Both the position numbers and the translations under genes were made by a program. Positions 5,271 through 41,655 of a DNA stretch of 54,712 nt are shown here, in pieces; the stretch's first letter is position 1; every line of letters starts with the position of its first letter. Location of the stretch: positions 1 to 54,712 of the forward strand of contig RZZN01000027.1 in assembly GCA_009929855.1 (NCBI GenBank). The letters run 5' to 3'. The notes under the pieces were generated by a model. The model was not told the DNA's origin, searched no databases, and worked only from the letters and a program-made list of their open reading frames with translations. The DNA comes from Gammaproteobacteria bacterium (GTDB taxonomy: Bacteria > Pseudomonadota > Gammaproteobacteria > Chromatiales > Chromatiaceae).

Positions 5271-6971
5271 TTAGATCTTGTCGATCCCCTCGCCGATGGC
5301 CTCACGCAGCATCTTGATCGCATCCTGGCTGATCGTGATCGAGCGCGTCAAGGACTCCCGCGCCATGTCCGGATTGTGGAACCCATCCGAATTCTCGGCC
5401 GTCCACCATTCCCAATAGGTATGGGCCTCGTCGTGCGCGGCGCGCGCCTTGGCCAAGACCTCCTCGCTCGCGCCCTGACGCTTGGCCAGCGAGTAGATGT
5501 CGATGAAGCTCGCCAGCCAGAACTCGGCCTTGGTGATCTTGCCGCGGATGTACTCCTGGATGGCGTCGATCTGATACTCGGCCTCTTCGTCGCTCCAGCC
5601 CTCGTGACAGCTGACGCAGGTGTCCGCCTTCATGTAACGGGCGCTGCGCTGACCATGGAAGGTATAGGACTGACCGTCTGGGGTTTGCATCTTGGGCATG
5701 TGACAATGCTTGCATTCCACACCGGCACGCTCATGCTTGGAGCCCCAGTAGGTCTCGGTCTCGGGGTGCTGCAGCTTGGAGAGCAAGGCACCCGTGGCGG
5801 CATGCTTGAAGTCACGGAAATTGATCTGATCCGCTGCCGCGCGATAATCGAGCACGTTCTGCCAGAAGAAATGATTGGTCCGGCGATCGGTCATCTTCAC
5901 GCTGTACTCGCCCGTGCTGGTGTCGAATCCCGGGTTACAGTTGTACTCGACATGACACTGGGCGCACATGACATTTGAATCCGGCTTGCTGAGCAGACCG
6001 ATGGCGCGGAAATCCTCGCCCTCCTCGCCACCGCGCTTGAAGGTCACCTTGGTCATGGTCACCTCGGCGCTCTTCTCCGCATCATAGGGATAGGTCCCCA
6101 TCTCGCGATCCACCACGGCATTGATCAGACCATCACGCACCACCCGGGGCTGCGCCGAGTGCGGGTCGTGACACATGAAGCAGTTCAGGCCATGGTTCAA
6201 GGAGCGCGCGAAGTCGACCACATTGGATGTGCGCGCCCACTTGGCGTTCTCGTTCTCGTCGCCCATGTAGGCCCAATCCAGGATGTGGTCCATCGTCTTG
6301 CAGTTGAGGCACACCGGATTGGCCGCGGTGGCGGTCTGCGGCAGGAAGGCCTTCTGCTCCGAGGTCTCGGGCTCAGCGTCGGTCAGGACCGTCCAGGCGC
6401 CTTGGGCCGCACCGCGCCCATCGGTGATGTGGGTCCAGTCCTTCAACTGGAAGCGCCCGCCATAGGCACGGTCGACGATGAAATGGTCGACCAGCATGAA
6501 GACATGACTGCGCGGCTCGGCATGCTCCTTGGCAAAGCCATGACCGGCGATCAGCTTGTCGAACATGGGCGAGCGGCTCTTGAAGGAGGCCTTCTCGACC
6601 CGTGCCTTGGAATGCAGATTCACCTCGACGAACGAGTTGTACTGCATCAGATGACAGCTCGAGCAGACATCCGGGTTCATCAGCGTGATCGGACGCGCGC
6701 CGATGTTGTCTTCCTCGGCCTTGTCCAAATGCTCCTGGGCATCGTGACAGTAGGCACAGTTGACGGTGGCATGACTGCCGGTGCTATGAAACTCCTCGAT
6801 ATTGGTGTGGCATGAATAACATTCGCTCGTGTTCACGAGCTCGACCGGCGGAGCCTTCTCCTCGGGCGCCGCGGGTTTCGACGGTTCAGTCACATACCCC
6901 AGGGCCGTGCCGCCCAGGAGCAACAGTGTCAAGCCGAGCCCAACGCTCAGCTGATTCTTGTACCCCATCAT
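5271..6971 (-). CDS. Octaheme cytochrome c nitrite reductase, TvNiR type
   Basis: The 566-residue exported protein has a signal or anchor segment at residues 8-26 and eight heme motifs at Cys51, 72, 103, 221, 264, 336, 420 and 452. Seven are CXXCH; the fourth is CLNCK, the lysine-ligated catalytic heme typical of ammonia-forming nitrite reductases. From recalled TvNiR (Thioalkalivibrio) numbering, all the catalytic residues are in register: Arg168, Lys225, Tyr343, Gln401 and His402. Cys345 forms the Tyr-x-Cys pair that is covalently crosslinked in TvNiR. The predicted reaction is six-electron reduction of nitrite to ammonium; hydroxylamine and sulfite are possible alternatives. A GGAGGTGAG ribosome site precedes ATGATG at 6966-6971, which fixes the start; the frame is open to 7157 but would overlap fccB. 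It lies 172 bases downstream of fccB, same strand. Confidence 0.9.
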
Positions 6972-7143
6972 GCTCACCTCCGGTTTCGCGGTAACTCCGA
7001 GTGATGGAGCCCACTGCCGAGCCCCCTCGGAGACGGCGCGCGGCTGACATGGTCCGCGCTTTATCGTTGTCGCCCCGGATCCGGGTCGTTGCCCCCAGTG
7101 GGCTGCTCGAACCCCGTCCTCTCGCCGAGACAGCGAGCCAGTC

Positions 7144-8436
7144 TCAGGTGAATGCATCCGCCATCACGTTCTTGAACCAGCCGTCGGCATACTCCGCCTC
7201 CAGCTTGCGCTGGATCGGCAGCGCATCCACGGGTGAAATGCCTCCGGCCTCCTCGACATAGACGAATTGATTGTCTTCGACACGATAGACCTGGACGACC
7301 GAGACCCCATAGTCGGGCGCGACCAGGCTGTAGCAGGTATTGGCGTAATAGGGCACGGGCGGTGCCAGACCATTGAGCGCCGCGACGATGGCGCCGGCGG
7401 CGACCTTGGCTTGGGTCATGCCGATGTGCGCCGACTTCGGCATGGGGAATTCAGCCGTGCCACCGACACAGGCATCACCGACCACATAGATGCCGGGATG
7501 AACCGCCGATTCCATGGTCATGGGGACGACCTCGCACCAGCCGGCCGCGTTGGTCAGACCGGTCTCCCTGGCGATCGCGCCCGCGGTGTGACGCGGGATG
7601 AGATTGAGCACCGCCGCCGTGTGCTCGTCGAAGGTCGTCACCGCCGTCAAGGTATCCGCATCGACCCGCTCCACGGTGCCGCCCGCGGCGGCCGAGACCC
7701 ATTCGATCATGCCGGGATAGAGCGCCGCCCAGGCCTGCTCGAACAACACCCGTTTCGCAAACGAATCATTGGCGTCCAGGATGAGGACCTTGCTCTTGGG
7801 CTTGTCGTGGGTCTGGCAATAGTGCGCGACCTGCGCGGCACGCTCATAGGGTCCGGGTGGACAACGGAAGGGACCCTTGGGCACCGAGATGACGAACAGC
7901 CCGCCATCGGGCATGGCCTCGAGCTGCTGCTTGAGCAGCAGTGTCTGATCGGCACCCTTGTAGGCATGCGGGATGCGCGTGGCAACCTCCTCCGAGTAGC
8001 CTTCCACGCTGGCATAATCGAAGCTGATGCCGGGCGCCACCACGCAGGCGTCATAGCTCAAGGTCTGACCGCCCTGGGTGGTGACGGATTTCTTGACCGG
8101 ATCGATGGCTGTCACGGTCTCGTGCAGGAGCTCGACCCCCCGTCGGGCCAGGCCATCGTAGCCGATCTGTAGCGACTCGATGGTGCGATGACCGGTGACC
8201 ACCTCGTTGGAGAGCGGGCAGGAGGTATAGGTCGTGAGCGGCTCGATCAGGGTCACCTGGATGGCCGGATCGAGACGGCGGAGATATTTCGCGGCGGTCG
8301 CGCCGGCGAATCCGCCACCGACCACCACGACCCGCTTGGGCGCGGCGCCGGCCGCGGCGACCGGGACACTCAGGATGGACGTCAATGGCGCGGCGGCCAG
8401 GATCTGCATGAAGTGACGACGATTCATCTTGCTCAT
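7144..8436 (-). CDS. fccB: Flavocytochrome c sulfide dehydrogenase, flavoprotein subunit FccB
   Basis: FccB is the FAD subunit of periplasmic sulfide:cytochrome c oxidoreductase, which oxidises sulfide to sulfur or polysulfide. The 430-residue precursor starts with a Tat signal (NRRHFMQ at 5-11, hydrophobic to about 29). A dinucleotide-binding [11 protein letters not shown] follows at 36-46. Cys73 in YTSCPLSN is the expected covalent FAD attachment site, and Cys192 and Cys368 match the redox disulfide; all three are offset by exactly 31 from the recalled mature Allochromatium numbering (42, 161, 337). The chosen ATG at 8434-8436 has GAGGTGA about 7 bases upstream. It is 10 bases downstream of fccA, so the subunits are co-transcribed. 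Confidence 0.95.
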
Positions 8437-8446
8437 CCGGATCACC

Positions 8447-9064
8447 TCACTCGCTCTCGCCTTGGCCGCCGGTCTGGCTAGCATAGAATACAGACACCGC
8501 GGGAACATCCTTCTCCTTGATCTTTCTCATGTTTTGAGTCATCTTCTTGTGCGGGAGGGTGATGCTCTCGTCGCGGTACTTGAGCGTCTCCAGCTCCAGA
8601 TGACGCAGCCACTGACCGTCGAGACGCGGCGTATCCTCGCCGTCGGGCTCGGCACCGGTCTCGCCATGACATTTGGCGCACCGCTCGGTGGCGAATTTGC
8701 CTGAGCGCACCAGTTTGGCATCCAGCTCTTGAACCGCCGGCACCCAGGGCTTCTCAGCGAAATAAGCGGCCAGCGCGATGATCTCATCGTTGCTGTAGCC
8801 CGCGAGCAGCCGGCCCATGGTGGTGGAGAAGCGCTCGCCGGACTGCCACTCCAGCATCAGAGTCTCCAGGTACTCCCGGGATTGGCCAGCGATCGAGGCC
8901 ATCGAGCTCCCGGCGCTGACGCCGTCCATCCCGTGACAGTTGTTGCAGGTCGCGGCGAGTCCAGCGATCTTGCCATCGTCGGCGAACGAAACGTTCAAGC
9001 AGATCAGCAACGAGGCCGCGCTGAGCGCGCGCACGAGCGGCGCGTGCAGACGGATCTTGCACAT
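8447..9064 (-). CDS. fccA: Flavocytochrome c sulfide dehydrogenase, diheme cytochrome subunit FccA
   Basis: This is the electron-accepting cytochrome of FCSD. The 205-residue precursor has a Sec signal peptide to about residue 28 and two cytochrome c domains with CNNCH at 40-44 and CAKCH at 129-133. Candidate axial methionines are Met83 (STTMG) and one in HKKMTQNM. Length and two-domain layout match FccA and the cytochrome c4 fold. The ATG at 9062-9064 follows a GGAGGAG ribosome site. Two FNR-type palindromes lie upstream at 9135-9148 and 9173-9186. The next gene upstream encodes a close paralogue with identically placed heme motifs. Confidence 0.93.
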   Translation of the reverse strand: MCKIRLHAPLVRALSAASLLICLNVSFADDGKIAGLAATCNNCHGMDGVSAGSSMASIAGQSREYLETLMLEWQSGERFSTTMGRLLAGYSNDEIIALAAYFAEKPWVPAVQELDAKLVRSGKFATERCAKCHGETGAEPDGEDTPRLDGQWLRHLELETLKYRDESITLPHKKMTQNMRKIKEKDVPAVSVFYASQTGGQGESE

Positions 9065-9192: not shown

Positions 9193-9789
9193 TCAGCGCT
9201 GGCTGGCGAAAAAGGTCGAAACGGCGGTGAGATCCTCTGCCTTGAGCTTGCGCACGCTCTCCTGCATCTTCTCATGACTGAATGTGAGTCCCTCGTCACG
9301 GTATTTGAGCAACACCAGGTCGAGATACTCGACCCGTTGGCCATTGATGTAGGGGGTCTCCTCGGTCCTCGGCTTGCTGCCTCTCAAGCCGTGACAGCGC
9401 GCGCAGCGGCCCGCTGGGATCTTGCCTTGGGCCACCAGATCCGAGTCCAGCTCCTGCGCGGCCGGGGTCCAGGGCAGCGCGGCGAAATAGGCGGCCATGG
9501 CATTGATCTGATCCTCATCAAATCCCGCGAGCAGTGACCCCATCACGGTCGAGAAGCGCGTCCCGGTCCGCCACTCCTGCATGACCATGCGCAGATAGGA
9601 CTCGGGCTGACCAGCGATCGAGGGCATCGTCGCGCCGGCGCTCACCCCATCCTCGCCATGACACTGCTGACAGGTCGCGACCAATCCACGGATCTCGGGA
9701 GGCGCGGCCCGCGCCTCCAGGGCCAGGAGCCAGCACAGCGTGGCGGCGAAAAGGACCAGCCAGGACGCGTGGGGGGAATGCTCGCTCAT
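9193..9789 (-). CDS. FccA-like diheme cytochrome c (c4 family)
   Basis: The 198-residue precursor has a signal peptide ending around ARA at residues 26-28 and heme motifs CQQCH at 40-44 and CARCH at 129-133, exactly the positions seen in the neighbouring FccA. Shared stretches include DGVSAG, SIAGQ, MAAYFA/LAAYFA and LKYRDE, so the two genes are clear tandem paralogues, roughly half identical by eye. It could be an alternative cytochrome partner of FccB, an electron carrier from FCSD, or an independent cytochrome c4. The start ATG at 9787-9789 has a GGAG site upstream. The gap to fccA holds two FNR-type boxes, so the paralogues may be controlled separately. Confidence 0.85.
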   Translation of the reverse strand: MSEHSPHASWLVLFAATLCWLLALEARAAPPEIRGLVATCQQCHGEDGVSAGATMPSIAGQPESYLRMVMQEWRTGTRFSTVMGSLLAGFDEDQINAMAAYFAALPWTPAAQELDSDLVAQGKIPAGRCARCHGLRGSKPRTEETPYINGQRVEYLDLVLLKYRDEGLTFSHEKMQESVRKLKAEDLTAVSTFFASQR

Positions 9790-9837
9790 GTCATGGTCTC
9801 CGCGCTGATGGCCGCAGACTCCGGCCATGCGTGTGGT

Positions 9838-32487: not shown

Positions 32488-33135
32488 GTGGACAAATCCA
32501 AGAGCGCAGCCTCGAGCGTCACATCAACAAAAACCAAAGGCGTCGCGCAAAGCTCCTTATCGGCAGCCCTGCTGCCAACGATCGTGCTCTATGTCGCCGC
32601 TGTCGTCCTCGTCATGTTCACGCGTGATGACCCCGCATCCACCATCGCCTACTGGGAGACCTTCATCCCAGTCGTGGCCTTCATCTCGCTGATGTCCGGC
32701 TTTGGACCGGCCTACGTGCGTGAACAATCCCACCTGGCCTACATCCTCAAGCAGATCCTGCACTGGGGGATCGTCATCGGCATGCTCTGGCTGCTGCACA
32801 CCCACGGGATCCGCGGCGCGCTCAGCGACCCACAATACCTGCTGGTGCTGATGTACACGCTGGCTCTCACGGTGCTGCTCGTCGGCCTGCACCTGGACTT
32901 CAAGCTCATCTTCTTCGGTGCCTTCCTCGCCTGCTGCGCCTATCTGCAAGCAGCGCCCGAGAATGTCGCCCTCCTTGGGCTGATCGGCGATACCTTCGGC
33001 ATCGCCAACGCCCAGGAAAAACCGCTCACCATGATCATCGGCATCGCGGTCGTCGCCTTCCTCGCCAATGCGCTGATGCTCATCGGGACACGCGGTGCCG
33101 TCATGTCAAAACGGGTCAGCGAAGCCAAGCGTTGA
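32488..33135 (+). CDS. Unknown integral membrane protein
   Basis: I do not recognise the family. The 215-residue protein has a polar N-terminus rich in Ser, Lys and Thr, then five or six membrane segments (about 30-47, 58-73, 90-107, 117-135, 138-152 and 183-203). It starts with GTG at 32488, supported by AAAGGGGG about 8 bases upstream. A TTGACA hexamer at 32351-32356 may be the -35 box of its promoter, but the -10 region is poor. The gene is followed after 304 bases by a cytochrome b561 gene in the same orientation, so a redox link is possible but unproven. Confidence 0.75.
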   Translation: MDKSKSAASSVTSTKTKGVAQSSLSAALLPTIVLYVAAVVLVMFTRDDPASTIAYWETFIPVVAFISLMSGFGPAYVREQSHLAYILKQILHWGIVIGMLWLLHTHGIRGALSDPQYLLVLMYTLALTVLLVGLHLDFKLIFFGAFLACCAYLQAAPENVALLGLIGDTFGIANAQEKPLTMIIGIAVVAFLANALMLIGTRGAVMSKRVSEAKR

Positions 33136-33439: not shown

Positions 33440-34003
33440 ATGGCAAAGACACGCGTCATCACCAAATACAACATCCTCGCACAAGCCTTCCACTGGGTCG
33501 TGGCCATCTTGCTGTTCGGCCTACTCGGCACGAACCTGCTGCGCGAGCTGTCCGAGCAGGGATCGGGCATGCGGGAGATCTGGCTGAACATCCATATGTC
33601 GCTGGGGATCCTGCTGTTCGGGATCGTGATCCTGCGGCTCGTTTGGACCAAGATCACCCGCCAGCCAGAGCCACTGCCCGGCATGCGCATCACCCAGCTC
33701 TTCGCCAAGCTGGTCCACGTCCTTCTCAACCTCGCGACCCTGCTGGTCCCCATCGGCGGCTATCTGCGAATCGCCTCCAAGGATCTTCCAGCCGACTTCT
33801 TCGGAACCGCGATCCCCTCCATCATCGGGGACGTGCCCTGGATCCACGACATGGCCAAGATTGGTCATGGCGAGTACATGGAGCTCTTCTTCTATGTGCT
33901 GATCGGTCTGCACGTGCTGGCGGCGCTGTGGCATCAGTACATCAAGCGTGACGGCGCCCTCGATCGCATCCTGCCTTGGGGCAAGCCACCCACGGTGGCC
34001 TGA
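33440..34003 (+). CDS. Cytochrome b561 family protein
   Basis: The 187-residue, four-span protein has the histidine pattern of bacterial cytochrome b561: AFHWVVA (His18), NIHMSLGIL, LVHVLLNL and GLHVLAALWHQY. These should ligate two b hemes for quinol-linked electron transfer. GGAG lies about 10 bases before ATG 33440. It ends shortly before the convergent xseA. The physiological partner is not evident. Confidence 0.9.
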   Translation: MAKTRVITKYNILAQAFHWVVAILLFGLLGTNLLRELSEQGSGMREIWLNIHMSLGILLFGIVILRLVWTKITRQPEPLPGMRITQLFAKLVHVLLNLATLLVPIGGYLRIASKDLPADFFGTAIPSIIGDVPWIHDMAKIGHGEYMELFFYVLIGLHVLAALWHQYIKRDGALDRILPWGKPPTVA

Positions 34004-37693: not shown

Positions 37694-37817
37694 CCCGATC
37701 GCCAGACCGCACCATCTCCTGTGCCCGCGCCCGTGGGCTCGGACCATCGAGCGTCACGCGTGCATCCAAGCTGACCGTGTGGCGGATCAGGAGACGATCA
37801 CTGCCACAGGAGGACAG

Positions 37818-38855
37818 ATGAATGCCCCGTCCGGTCACCCGCGCAGTCCGCTCGACCACGTCAGAGCCCCTCGGCGCGTCGAGTGGCGCGCCTTGACCAA
37901 TCGCGCGCCACCACTCGCACTCCTCGCCATCCTGCTCTGTCTTTGCGCGATCCCGCTCCCGGCCAGCGTCGCCGCGAGCATCGCGTCAGAGGGAGCCGAC
38001 ACGGCTCATTCGCCCGCCGCCGCCGAGCGCCAGGCCTGTCTGCGTTGTCACGCCATGCCGACCCTCGCCTATCGCGAGCCGACGACGGGTGACATCGTCA
38101 GTCTCCATATCGACCCACACGCGCTCGCCGACTCGGTGCACGGCCAGCTTGCCTGTCTCGACTGTCACCGCCGCAGCTATCGGCGCTACCCGCATCCCGA
38201 GCGTGCCGCTCCGCGCGAATTCGATTGTATCGGCTGTCATCGCGACGACGACGCGGATCTCGGGCGTCAATGGCTCGGTATCGACGCCGAGTTCCAGCGC
38301 AGCGTGCATGCTGTCTCGACATCGCCTCGGGCCGCCAATTTCGATTGTCATACCTGTCACGATCCGCACCGCTTCCGCCCGGCCGCGGTCGGCGAGCCAC
38401 TCACTGAGATCGTCGCGCGCCACAACGCGGTCTGTCTCTCCTGCCATCGGCGTCTGCTCGAGCCGCAGCGACGCAGTCATGCCTGGCTGCCCAATCGCGA
38501 TGCGCACTGGCAAGCGGTCCGCTGCATCGACTGTCACACACCGCCCGCGCGCGAGGCCAACCATGAGGTCCTCGCCGCCGAGCAGACCGAGCGCAACTGT
38601 GTCGGCTGCCATTCCAGCGATCCAAGACTCCTCGCCGGACTCTATCGGTTCAGGTCCGAGGAAGAGATCGCACGCCGCGGCCTGCTCGCCCAGGCACTCT
38701 TCAACGAGGCCTATGTCATCGGCATGAGCCGCAGCCCCCTGCTCGATCGGCTCAGTCTGATCATCCTGGGTCTGCTGATCCTGGCACTCGCCGCGCATGG
38801 CATCGGCCGTTATCTGGTTCATCGAGCCGGACGTGATTCGCGAGGACGGGCATGA
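37818..38855 (+). CDS. Seven-heme c-type cytochrome with C-terminal membrane anchor
   Basis: The 345-residue protein has a signal sequence (about 31-53), seven CXXCH motifs at Cys74, 113, 137, 177, 206, 236 and 261, and a C-terminal membrane segment at about 312-330. Extra histidines (HIDPHALADSVHG, HDPH, SHAWLP) suggest bis-His ligation throughout. I do not recognise a named family; the layout recalls NapC/NrfB-like or quinol-linked multiheme electron-transfer proteins. AGGAGG lies five bases before ATG 37818; an earlier in-frame start at 37779 is less likely. The stop overlaps the cytochrome b gene (ATGA, 38852-38855), so the products are probably made stoichiometrically. Confidence 0.85.
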   Translation: MNAPSGHPRSPLDHVRAPRRVEWRALTNRAPPLALLAILLCLCAIPLPASVAASIASEGADTAHSPAAAERQACLRCHAMPTLAYREPTTGDIVSLHIDPHALADSVHGQLACLDCHRRSYRRYPHPERAAPREFDCIGCHRDDDADLGRQWLGIDAEFQRSVHAVSTSPRAANFDCHTCHDPHRFRPAAVGEPLTEIVARHNAVCLSCHRRLLEPQRRSHAWLPNRDAHWQAVRCIDCHTPPAREANHEVLAAEQTERNCVGCHSSDPRLLAGLYRFRSEEEIARRGLLAQALFNEAYVIGMSRSPLLDRLSLIILGLLILALAAHGIGRYLVHRAGRDSRGRA

Positions 38856-39493
38856 CGACACTCTATCTCTATCCCCTCTGGGTCAGGGTATGGCATTGGC
38901 TCAACGCCATCCTGTTTCTCGTCTTGATCGCCTCCGGGGTCAGTCTGCATTACGCCGGAACGACTTGGTTGATGCCATTCGCGACCGCGCGCATCCTCCA
39001 CAATGTCGCCGGCATCCTGCTCACACTCGGTTGGATCGGCTTCGTCATCGCCAATGCCCGCACCGCGAACGGGCGCCACTACCGCATCAGGCCGCGGACG
39101 CTGATCGGCGATCTGATCGCCCAGACACGCTACTATCTCCATGGGATCTTCCGCGGTGAGCCCCACCCCTTCCATGTCGAGCCCGAGCGCAAGTTCAACG
39201 CGCTCCAGCAACTCAGCTATCTGGGCGTGATGTATGGCCTGATGCCATTGCTCATCCTCAGCGGCTGGGGCTTTCTCTTCGCCGTCTATCTGCCTCCGAC
39301 CCTGTTCGGGCTTGGCAGTGTCTGGGTCGTGGCGCTCACCCACGTGGCGGTGAGCTATCTACTGGTCCTCTTCCTCGTGACTCATCTCTATATCATCACC
39401 ACTGGTGAGACGGTCTTCGCAAACCTCCGCGCCATGCTCACTGGTTGGCATCGCGCTGACTCATCGTCCACCTCCCGGTCCGAATCCTCATGA
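38852..39493 (+). CDS. Cytochrome b subunit (hydrogenase/formate dehydrogenase gamma-like)
   Basis: The 213-residue membrane protein has four spans and histidines in the positions used for two b hemes in Ni,Fe-hydrogenase, formate dehydrogenase and thiosulfate reductase cytochrome b subunits: VRVWHWLNAILF, ARILHNVAG, and THVAVSYLLVLFLVTHLYIITTGE in the last helices. Such subunits exchange electrons with the quinone pool. It lies between two multiheme c genes, overlapping each by ATGA, so it is the likely quinone-reactive core of the predicted complex. The tail is Ser/Arg-rich. Confidence 0.88.
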   Translation: MTTLYLYPLWVRVWHWLNAILFLVLIASGVSLHYAGTTWLMPFATARILHNVAGILLTLGWIGFVIANARTANGRHYRIRPRTLIGDLIAQTRYYLHGIFRGEPHPFHVEPERKFNALQQLSYLGVMYGLMPLLILSGWGFLFAVYLPPTLFGLGSVWVVALTHVAVSYLLVLFLVTHLYIITTGETVFANLRAMLTGWHRADSSSTSRSESS

Positions 39494-41655
39494 ACGATCG
39501 TCTCTCCGCACTCCTCGCCTCACGGCCACTGCGGCGCCTACTGATCGCGGTCGGCGCGCTGGCCCTGCTCGGTGCACTCTTCAGCCTCCTCTACCCGCTG
39601 GTGTTCGAGACCTACGTCGGAAAGGTCAACGCACCCTTGACCTTCAGCAGCAGCCAGACGCTGAACGATGATGAATTCGAGGCACTGGCGGCCGAGTTGA
39701 GCTGGAGCGCGCGGCACGCGGCAGCCGCAGCGATCGTCGGCGGTGATCCCGAGAGCTTCGAGCGACAGGTCAAGATCGAGATGCTGATGCAGACGCCATC
39801 GCGGATGCGCGAGCATGAGCCCTCGCACATCAAATATTTCCGTGATGCCGGCATTCGTCGCTACGAGGGTCCAAAGACCTGCTTGGAATGCCACGCGACC
39901 ATGCGGGTGCGCGACCAGGAGGGCCGAGCCCAGGTCGTCGACACCCTGGACGATCTCGTCAATTCAGTGCATTTCAAGTTTCAGAGCGACGCGGGTGGTG
40001 GCTTTTCGACCTTCGGCTATGATGGCCGTCGGGTCAACGCCCCGGGCACGCGTCCCATCCCGATCGGCAAGATCAATCGTGCCTGCGGGATCCCGGGCAG
40101 CTTCTCCTGGACCGGCTGGGCGGCACTCATCGCGGCCCGCCCCGAGGCGGCGCAGGGTGCCATCGAGATGCGCAGCGAGGGCTGTGGCCAGTGTCACATC
40201 GGCGGCAATTATCAACCCGCCACCGAGAAGATGATGCCGATCGGCGATGTGCCCGAGGTGGCCAAGGAGGGGATCGACTGTCTGATCTGTCACGCCGCCG
40301 AATATGACATGAACCAGCGCTACGTGATCGAGGACTCGGCGGGGCTGCGCTGGAACCAGGACCGCAGCCTGCGCGCCGCGCTCACCGTCGGCCAAGCGAC
40401 GACCCGCAATTGTCTGCTCTGTCACCAACACAACATGGGCGGCGATGCCTACGCGCACAACGAGGCCGCCCAGGCACTCGGCGAGCACAACCCGCGACTG
40501 CTGCACAAGGGCGCCAAGCGTGGCAATCCATTCAGCCCCGAATCCGATGTCCACGCCGCCGCCGGACTGCTCTGCACCGACTGTCATGTCCCGCAAGGTC
40601 ACAAGATCCCACGCGGTCTGATGGGTGTGGATCTGGTCGCCAACGACCTGCCCGAGGTCGAGGTCTCCTGCGTCAAGTGTCATTCGGAGGCCCCGCACAA
40701 CCGCTCCCAGCACAAGGCGCTGCTCAACGGACACCTCGACCGGCTCGCCTGCACGACTTGCCATGTGCGGTCGTTGGAGGAGAACAACGTGGTCCTGCGC
40801 GACTGGGTCCATCCGACCTGGGACCCGGAGGAGGGCATCTTCAAGGCGACCGACATCTATCGCTCAGGCGCGGTCGGTCAGGGCTTCACCTTCCTCTGGT
40901 TCAATGGCAACGGCACCTTCCTTGCGAACGCGCTCGGCAATCATCCAGACGGATCGAGCACCTATGATCCATTGATGCAGCAGCTCGCGCGCATCGAGGA
41001 TCCCGAGGTGATCGCGGCGGTGCGGGCGCGGGCCACCGAGCTGAAGGAGACCTACCCACACATCGACATCGATGACTATGTGCGGGCCGCGACCGATCCG
41101 CTCTCCCAGCTCACGCCCGAGCAGCTCGAGCAACGCCGCGCCCTGCTCGAGCGCAACCTGCGGGTCCACATGGACGAGGGACAGAGCAAGCTCTATCCAT
41201 TCAAGCTCTTCAACGCCATGATGTACGAGGATCTGGGCAACCAAGGCCCCTTCGGCGCCATGATCCTACCCTTCGATTACGCGACCTATCACGAGACGGG
41301 CGACAGTCAGGCGGCCATGATCCAGGCGATCCGCGATCCGATCGTGCGGCGGATGTACGAGACGCCCTTCAAGCTCTACATGATGGACGAATTCATGGCC
41401 TATTTCGGTGTCGCCGAGGGCTGGCGCACCCAGTATCCGCTGGCCAGCGGCGAGCTGCGCGATGTAGAGCCGCGCTGGATGCGCCAAATGGGCTCGCTCA
41501 AGATCAGCCATGGCATCCAGCCAGTGGGCCGTGACTGCATCGAGTGCCACTCACCGAACGGTATCCTCGATTACCAGGGGCTCGGCTACTCGCCCGAGCG
41601 CGCCGCCGAGCTGCAACACCTGGATATCGTCGAGAATCTGCGCCCGGCAGGCTAG
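39490..41655 (+). CDS. Membrane-anchored octaheme cytochrome c (Otr-like, substrate unknown)
   Basis: The 721-residue protein has an uncleaved N-terminal anchor (about 16-38). Eight CXXCH motifs lie at Cys131, 232, 264, 308, 362, 394, 421 and 683. The first seven sit within 300 residues, with a heme-free stretch of about 260 residues before the last. The segment CGIPGSFSWTGW between hemes 1 and 2, then GCGQCHIGGNY, GIDCLICHAAEYD and NCLLCHQHNMGGDA, resembles the plan of octaheme tetrathionate reductase (Otr) and related proteins, but I cannot assign it firmly. No CXXCK is present, so it is not TvNiR-like. It overlaps the cytochrome b gene (ATGA at 39490-39493). It is the likely catalytic or terminal subunit. 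Confidence 0.82.
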   Translation: MNDRLSALLASRPLRRLLIAVGALALLGALFSLLYPLVFETYVGKVNAPLTFSSSQTLNDDEFEALAAELSWSARHAAAAAIVGGDPESFERQVKIEMLMQTPSRMREHEPSHIKYFRDAGIRRYEGPKTCLECHATMRVRDQEGRAQVVDTLDDLVNSVHFKFQSDAGGGFSTFGYDGRRVNAPGTRPIPIGKINRACGIPGSFSWTGWAALIAARPEAAQGAIEMRSEGCGQCHIGGNYQPATEKMMPIGDVPEVAKEGIDCLICHAAEYDMNQRYVIEDSAGLRWNQDRSLRAALTVGQATTRNCLLCHQHNMGGDAYAHNEAAQALGEHNPRLLHKGAKRGNPFSPESDVHAAAGLLCTDCHVPQGHKIPRGLMGVDLVANDLPEVEVSCVKCHSEAPHNRSQHKALLNGHLDRLACTTCHVRSLEENNVVLRDWVHPTWDPEEGIFKATDIYRSGAVGQGFTFLWFNGNGTFLANALGNHPDGSSTYDPLMQQLARIEDPEVIAAVRARATELKETYPHIDIDDYVRAATDPLSQLTPEQLEQRRALLERNLRVHMDEGQSKLYPFKLFNAMMYEDLGNQGPFGAMILPFDYATYHETGDSQAAMIQAIRDPIVRRMYETPFKLYMMDEFMAYFGVAEGWRTQYPLASGELRDVEPRWMRQMGSLKISHGIQPVGRDCIECHSPNGILDYQGLGYSPERAAELQHLDIVENLRPAG

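Follow-up and report, generated by a model that had tools for sequence, protein, structure and literature searches.

On contig RZZN01000027.1 of a Thiocapsa-like purple sulfur bacterium (assembly GCA_009929855.1; the closest rows in the tree are Thiocapsa), three adjacent genes were found that very probably encode a quinone-linked membrane complex with an octaheme c-type cytochrome as its working end. The window, i.e. the whole analyzed stretch, comprises 54,712 nucleotides, and the three genes (hereafter the trio) are located on its forward strand. They code for a heptaheme c-type cytochrome, a b561-type cytochrome b and an octaheme c-type cytochrome. This putative respiratory complex has been kept as a unit from Chromatiaceae to Ignavibacteria. 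The octaheme follows the plan of Otr, whereas the lysine of the Otr active site is replaced in nearly all of its relatives. The substrate is rather probably a sulfur compound. The reading favored here is a quinol-linked periplasmic reductase of such a compound, which is put forward tentatively since both substrate and direction are inferred.

The heptaheme gene (37818..38855, +) encodes 345 amino acids with seven CXXCH motifs, the cytochrome b gene (38852..39493, +) 213 amino acids, and the octaheme gene (39490..41655, +) 721 amino acids with eight CXXCH motifs. As stated in the original prediction, the genes are joined by ATGA overlaps at 38852 and 39490, and the two c-type proteins together account for 7 + 8 = 15 hemes. 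This is far above the number in shuffled proteins of the same composition, which contained on average 0.04 (heptaheme) and 0.014 (octaheme) motifs with maxima of 3 and 2, respectively (10,000 shuffles each). The predicted opposite membrane anchors were likewise supported by hydropathy analysis. The heptaheme has hydrophobic segments at residues 33-51 (N-terminal, export) and 312-330 (C-terminal helix), and the octaheme a single N-terminal hydrophobic region starting at residue 17. Judging from the charged ends in the sequence, both c-type domains are probably periplasmic.

For the analysis of conservation, genome contigs were scanned, resulting in 131 octaheme relatives, of which 80 were kept; all counts over 80 loci refer to these 80 of 131. 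The named relatives are 57-78% identical to the protein of the window. The full trio, in the same order and on the same strand, was identified in 74 of the 80 loci, and the largest gap between matches was 263 bases. A lack of such conservation had been named beforehand as an outcome that would speak against the complex; the data support a conserved three-gene membrane unit. Carriers belong to the Chromatiaceae, Thiomargarita, Magnetococcales, Ignavibacteria, Bacteroidetes and Poribacteria and are mostly sulfur bacteria. Three of the six exceptions are contigs that start inside the cytochrome b gene (L073, L087) or the octaheme gene (L082). In L064 the last residues of the cytochrome b are joined to an unrelated frame, which looks chimeric, and L090 is split, its genome carrying a heptaheme-cytochrome b pair on a different contig (L137). 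In the Ignavibacteria locus L080, the heptaheme gene adjoins the octaheme gene without a cytochrome b gene between them, and related cytochromes b are encoded elsewhere in the genome. In a Melioribacteraceae genome (L094, identical to L135), heptaheme and cytochrome b are fused into a single open frame, which the octaheme gene follows directly.

The octaheme was found in 50, the heptaheme in 51 and both in 49 of the 146 genomes examined from the window's family. At the thresholds used, one genome (G082) has the octaheme only and two (G019, G027) the heptaheme only, G027 also containing pieces of an octaheme. The heptaheme relative in G019 (C230:1264-2094, −; E-value 6e-83) stands in a genome that is 88% complete and has no octaheme at the threshold. 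In a sample of 369 genomes of the class, an octaheme at an E-value of 1e-60 was detected in the window's own genome only. Viral contigs contained no relative. Plasmids contained no match for the heptaheme; a stretch covering 29% of the octaheme was matched at 28% identity in five plasmid records, one of them annotated as a tetrathionate-reductase-family octaheme.

The Otr-like plan that had been proposed for the octaheme was borne out by several comparisons. Against PDB sequences, Otr (1sp3) was found with an E-value of 1.9e-12 for the single sequence and of 1.8e-17 with a profile. The AlphaFold model (mean pLDDT 79.7, pTM 0.82) had 1sp3 as its single significant PDB match in Foldseek (E-value 1.8e-11, target TM score 0.49, root-mean-square deviation 12.2), which, so far as the model goes, shows agreement in the overall plan but not in detail. 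Aligned to 17 true Otr proteins using HHalign, the octaheme reached a probability of 99.9 over residues 231-440. This Otr alignment (A4) comprises 17 of 20 loci, leaving out L123 with ten motifs and the fragments L124 and L125. For the octaheme, the rows are the window and the 80 loci; two further alignments, A3 and A5, consist of the window plus 46 and 36 of the 80 loci, respectively.

Membership of the octaheme in Otr itself was rejected on account of its score, the lost lysine and a true Otr in the same genome. The octaheme scored 80.4 bits with TIGR04315 (Otr), below the cut-off of 375, whereas the separate Otr encoded by the same genome (G000:C150) scored 597.4 bits. In the 17 Otr proteins, the pair K266-H267 (numbering of the L117 protein) is invariant. 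Counted along 1sp3, K266 corresponds to Lys153, which we take to coordinate the catalytic heme. The aligned octaheme residue, 322, is a lysine in one of the 81 rows and replaced in the other 80. Within the first nine residues of this segment, 13 of the 81 rows have a lysine at some position.

Nine non-motif histidines and one free cysteine of the octaheme, Cys199, its sole non-heme cysteine, are invariant. The cysteine belongs to the loop GKIxRACGxPGSF(S/T)WTGWA (residues 193-211; 40066..40122, +), which is proposed to be an active-site loop beside heme 2. K194, R197 and C199 were identical in 81 of 81 rows, and Lys343 and Arg344 are also invariant. The rows for the loop were picked by the letters RACG, a choice through which none of the 80 loci was lost. 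By analogy, Cys199 may be placed in the heme-2 pocket, because an invariant GK...C also precedes heme 2 in Otr (17 proteins). Apart from the C-terminus, the confidence of the model was lowest at about residues 191-210, and the windows starting at 190-192 were among the best conserved of the protein. This combination would be consistent with a loop over a missing cofactor.

Membership in ONR, NrfA or MccA was likewise rejected, on the heme motifs. All eight motifs are CXXCH and no CXXCK is present, which rules out ONR and NrfA; the matches to NrfA were weak, with a short shared stretch around two hemes. A scan for C-X5..17-CH gave no hit, ruling out MccA, the sulfite reductase whose heme motif is presumably CX15-17CH. 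HAO has a tyrosine-crosslinked P460 heme, and the match between the octaheme model and the HAO structure 1fgj was insignificant (E-value 4.1). NrfA, ONR, HAO and MccA resemble the octaheme as multiheme periplasmic catalysts, but it lacks CXXCK and CX15-17CH and matches them weakly or insignificantly in sequence or fold.

Hemes 7 and 8 of the octaheme are separated by a heme-free stretch of 257 residues (426-682; 40765..41535, +). The original prediction was correct in its length of about 260 residues, whereas the separate domain suggested for it was not supported. The distance from the heme-7 motif to the heme-8 motif is 262 residues, compared to 180-187 residues in the 17 true Otr proteins, so that a long gap exists in Otr too, and 1sp3 is the sole PDB match. 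In addition, mean column conservation is 0.74 for residues 427-560 and 0.80 for residues 561-682, the latter being equal to the heme core (0.80; residues 226-426). The best-conserved window of 20 residues in the whole octaheme starts at position 578, in the second half of the stretch. The heme-free stretch is read as a part of the catalytic unit or a subunit contact.

The heptaheme matched the Pfam families Paired_CXXCH_1 and Cytochrome_C7. Besides its seven motifs, seven further histidines before the last helix were invariant in all 76 rows (window and 75 loci). Since there is exactly one invariant non-motif histidine per heme, the protein is probably an electron wire. An eighth invariant non-motif histidine, H327, lies inside the C-terminal helix (76 of 76 rows). 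The AlphaFold model of residues 45-345 had a pLDDT of 82.5 and no significant fold match in the PDB; the best sequence relative of solved structure was 28pb_A. In carrier genomes, further multiheme c proteins encoded ahead of related cytochromes b also end in a similar His-Gly helix (L136, L139, L140), and multiheme c plus cytochrome b may for this reason represent a reusable module. Two of these loci (L136 and L140, from the Ignavibacteria genome G341) encode 13-heme c proteins with a His-Gly membrane helix at the end, adjoining related cytochromes b. One cytochrome b gene of G341 runs in frame into a part with five CXXCH motifs.

The cytochrome b matched PF01292 (E-value 1.8e-23) and has several membrane segments according to hydropathy. 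With the NCBIfam model PRK15006 (thiosulfate reductase cytochrome b), it reached 198.4 bits and narrowly missed the cut-off of 204; the E-value to FdnI (1kqf_C) was 0.0044. His15, His50, His164 and His178 are invariant in all 50 rows (window and 49 loci; the motif used did not capture 31 of the 80 loci). The claim that this subunit can reach quinones is supported insofar as it is of a quinone-reactive type. Regarding the proposed two-heme cytochrome b, the b561 type and the four histidines could be established, and two b hemes are likely. The subunit resembles the PhsC-type cytochrome b (PRK15006; also FdnI and hydrogenase b) in family, length and core histidines. In contrast to Phs, it stays under the PRK15006 cut-off and its partners are multiheme c proteins. 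In the list of open reading frames (ORFs) around the trio, no PhsA/PhsB-like gene was seen by sight, a genome-wide search for PhsA/PhsB not having been made. A second b561-type cytochrome b is encoded in the window at 33440-34003 (+; PF01292, E-value 6e-23); the preceding ORF (32488-33135) has no Pfam match.

In comparison to Otr (TIGR04315, 1sp3), the trio octaheme thus has eight CXXCH motifs in the same order, a long gap before heme 8, mostly matching distal histidine positions and the invariant GK...C before heme 2. It differs in being larger (721 amino acids) and membrane-anchored, in its fixed heptaheme and cytochrome b partners, in an extra invariant histidine together with Lys343 and Arg344, and in the replacement of the Otr lysine in 80 of 81 rows. 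A true Otr in a related setting was observed in the Magnetococcales genome G347 (L139; TIGR04315, 532.9 bits). It has a C-terminal membrane helix and lies next to a related cytochrome b as well as the fragment of an ArrA-like molybdoenzyme; here, Otr is built into a quinone-linked module.

By gene content, the nearest named complex found is CbcABCDE of Geobacter. According to an excerpt of PMC10989804, it consists of a 7-heme c protein, an inner-membrane cytochrome b, the 11-heme CbcC, the monoheme CbcD and the membrane protein CbcE. CbcBA is described in an excerpt of PMC10553843 to pass electrons between quinones and periplasmic cytochromes. Both systems have adjacent genes for a 7-heme c protein and a membrane cytochrome b, and a further multiheme c protein. 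As far as these excerpts describe Cbc, the third subunit differs (eight hemes and Otr plan compared to the 11-heme CbcC), and no gene cluster beyond the trio occurs in more than 20 loci, compared to CbcD and CbcE in Geobacter.

The cytochrome b561 and octaheme have been noticed before in purple sulfur bacteria. In excerpts of PMC6374484, Chromatium okenii is described to have a cytochrome b561 and an octaheme c with neighboring locus tags, homologous to Allochromatium vinosum; citing Weissgerber 2013, the pair is said to be conserved in purple sulfur bacteria and sulfide-induced in A. vinosum, and no function is given there. Since C. okenii LaCa carries the trio (L074), the published pair very probably represents trio genes. 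The locus tags Alvin_1092/1094 belong to the fcc region and not to the trio. In the titles and abstract starts of the open-licence literature, no paper on the trio as a complex was found. This agrees with the original prediction that no named complex has this exact set, whereas its novelty is limited by CbcABCDE and by the b561-octaheme pair, as given in the excerpts. The trio is therefore regarded as a variant of the known quinone-linked multiheme complexes that makes use of the Otr fold.

Concerning the metabolic context, dsrA exceeded the cut-off in 121 of the 146 family genomes. Of 32 carrier genomes chosen so as not to include the named Chromatiaceae rows, most of them Magnetococcales, 23 had it over the cut-off as well. 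In 185 genomes sampled from the window's class, which are not a matched control, it was found in 60. Of the 80 carriers, 26 have NapA and 11 NarG, giving 29 with one or both. Neither was found in the other 51, including the window's own genome (E-value 1e-100; some bins incomplete). Some of the bins behind the dsrA, NapA and NarG counts are incomplete, and of the 32 genomes the NapA and NarG counts leave out G336 and G343, whose dsrA coordinates equal those of the included G033 and G128. Given how often dsrA was found and how often NapA and NarG were not, the trio is read as accessory to the metabolism of some Dsr-type sulfur bacteria, not of nitrate respirers. Within the family, the octaheme tracks the photosynthetic reaction centre: 47 genomes have both the octaheme and the photosynthetic reaction centre, 3 the octaheme only, 10 the reaction centre only and 86 neither (Fisher p 1e-24, inflated by kinship).

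A Hyb-type (H2:quinone) hydrogenase operon diverges upstream of the trio in 7 of the 62 loci with at least 2.5 kb upstream of the heptaheme gene (L031, L039, L043, L048, L050, L070, L075). It consists of small subunit, HybA, HybB and large subunit and is complete or cut by the contig; in L031, HybA and HybB exceed the NCBIfam cut-offs, and in L075 the large subunit lies beyond the contig search matches. In species with this neighbor, the arrangement suggests a chain from H2 via quinone to the trio. It therefore leans to the reductive side, part of which is explained by shared descent. Within the 9 kb downstream, another hydrogenase pair, more distant at 44-52% identity, is located in L026, L027, L028, L043 and L070.

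Based on these results, the trio is proposed to be a three-subunit inner-membrane quinone-linked multiheme oxidoreductase. Quinol would be oxidized at the diheme cytochrome b, where the quinone side is placed because this subunit is closest to the PhsC-type model. Electrons would move from there to the heptaheme wire, whose C-terminal helix may pack against the cytochrome b, and further to the periplasmic domain of the octaheme. The octaheme is considered the probable catalyst and the heptaheme the wire because of the nine invariant non-motif histidines and the invariant free cysteine of the former. Its changed site, lacking an Otr-type lysine and containing the invariant Cys199, Lys194, Arg197, Lys343 and Arg344, would reduce a sulfur compound, namely polythionate, polysulfide or the sulfane sulfur connected with sulfur globules. 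In the absence of light or of another acceptor, this reduction could serve to dispose of electrons. That the trio works mainly in this direction is the most probable of the readings considered, though less likely than not. As the trio is present in cultivable purple sulfur bacteria, the reaction is testable. Whichever the direction, it would be an example of a rewired Otr fold.

Several observations weigh against this proposal. The assignment of the active site draws on the alignment and on general knowledge of Otr, and the 1sp3 match has the large deviation of 12.2. The Dsr link is not strict and is confounded by kinship: at least 71 of the 121 family genomes with dsrA over the cut-off have no octaheme, and 7 of the 32 carriers have no sound dsrA (two Ignavibacteria/Melioribacter, a Poribacteria, two Bacteroidetes, a Hainich bin and one Magnetococcales bin), two more having sub-cut-off fragments only. 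The Hyb neighbor was not found in 55 of the 62 loci, and no relative of it is present in the window. Finally, the sulfide induction, which is known through the citation in the excerpt, fits an oxidative role equally well.

In such a role, which is somewhat unlikely, a reduced sulfur compound would be oxidized in the periplasm and its electrons passed into the quinone pool during sulfide-dependent growth, so that the trio would add a quinone entry point. The induction in A. vinosum and the conservation in purple sulfur bacteria (excerpt of PMC6374484) are in agreement with this, as is the presence of the octaheme in 47 of the 57 family genomes with a reaction centre. An excerpt of PMC11267869 describes one 7-heme and two 8-heme cytochromes of A. 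vinosum, the larger of which have no annotated function and were raised on pyrite; these would also point to oxidation if they are the trio proteins. On the other hand, the cytochrome b is nearest to a reductase-type model and the octaheme to a reductase fold, the divergent hydrogenase in seven loci is of a quinone-reducing type, and FccAB and SQR are already listed for sulfide in the C. okenii genome (excerpt of PMC6374484). According to the same excerpt, stored sulfur may act as an electron sink through reduction to H2S. A stronger form of the favored reductase reading, in which the trio is the missing quinol:stored-sulfur reductase of sulfur-globule-forming bacteria, is unlikely. Stored sulfur would then receive electrons from glycogen or H2 when it is dark or no other acceptor is at hand, at a new active site of the Otr fold that has a catalytic cysteine but no lysine-ligated heme. 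This would cover purple sulfur bacteria, Thiomargarita, magnetotactic cocci and a tubeworm symbiont and, if true, fill an old physiological gap.

The nitrogen option of the original prediction, which had left open a reductase or oxidase of a sulfur or nitrogen compound, was weakened because neither NapA nor NarG was found in 51 of the 80 carriers, but bins are partly incomplete and nitrite may come from outside. A quinol-linked reductase of nitrite, hydroxylamine or another nitrogen oxide that, like Otr, NrfA and ONR, would serve ammonification or detoxification is quite unlikely. Going by the title of a 2007 paper by Atkinson, Otr of Shewanella can reportedly reduce nitrite and hydroxylamine, and the weak NrfA matches would fit such a function. 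The octaheme has no CXXCK, however, its proposed active-site loop holds an invariant cysteine (though Otr has one too), and the same genome encodes separate Otr and ONR-like proteins. Still another role would be that of an electron conduit without a substrate of its own, with the octaheme delivering electrons to soluble cytochromes or to the cell surface, a role that has been suggested for the Cbc complexes of Geobacter. The gene-content likeness to CbcABCDE and the larger multiheme cytochromes, which were raised when A. vinosum grew on pyrite (excerpt of PMC11267869), are compatible with a conduit, and the Magnetococcales Otr with a membrane helix beside a cytochrome b and an ArrA-like enzyme indicates that such octahemes may be relays. 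It is nevertheless also quite unlikely: other genes with at least three CXXCH motifs were found in only 3 of the 80 loci (L083, L097, L100), porins not having been searched for, and the Cys199 loop and the second half of the heme-free part are conserved like the heme core, beyond the apparent need of a relay.

With regard to the surroundings of the trio, a likely ribosome-binding site, AGGAGG (37808..37813, +), was read directly in the sequence upstream of the ATG at 37818. The gene upstream of the trio belongs to PF13354, and a promoter/terminator scan gave no signal above chance. Besides the trio, no gene cluster occurred in more than 20 of the 80 loci; of two clusters with 20 loci, one is a shadow ORF of the trio and the other consists of two-component kinases. 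The clustering was based on the longest ORFs, and shadow ORFs displaced some real genes (the octaheme survived in 67 of the 80 loci); the hydrogenase counts were therefore taken from tblastn. An ABC transporter gene cluster is located near the trio in nine loci, the window list included. An ankyrin-like exported protein (14 loci) and a divergent sigma-54-like regulator (12 loci), both named by sight, were observed mostly in Magnetococcales (L084, L085, L089, L092 and L093, among others).

The window further encodes an ONR-like octaheme protein at 5271-7157 (−) with seven CXXCH motifs and one CXXCK motif (PF02335, E-value 8e-50). Its gene adjoins those of a Fcc-type sulfide dehydrogenase flavoprotein (7144-8508) and of diheme c proteins (8447-9064 and 9193-9828). 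It is striking to see a cytochrome of the nitrite reductase type paired with a sulfide dehydrogenase.

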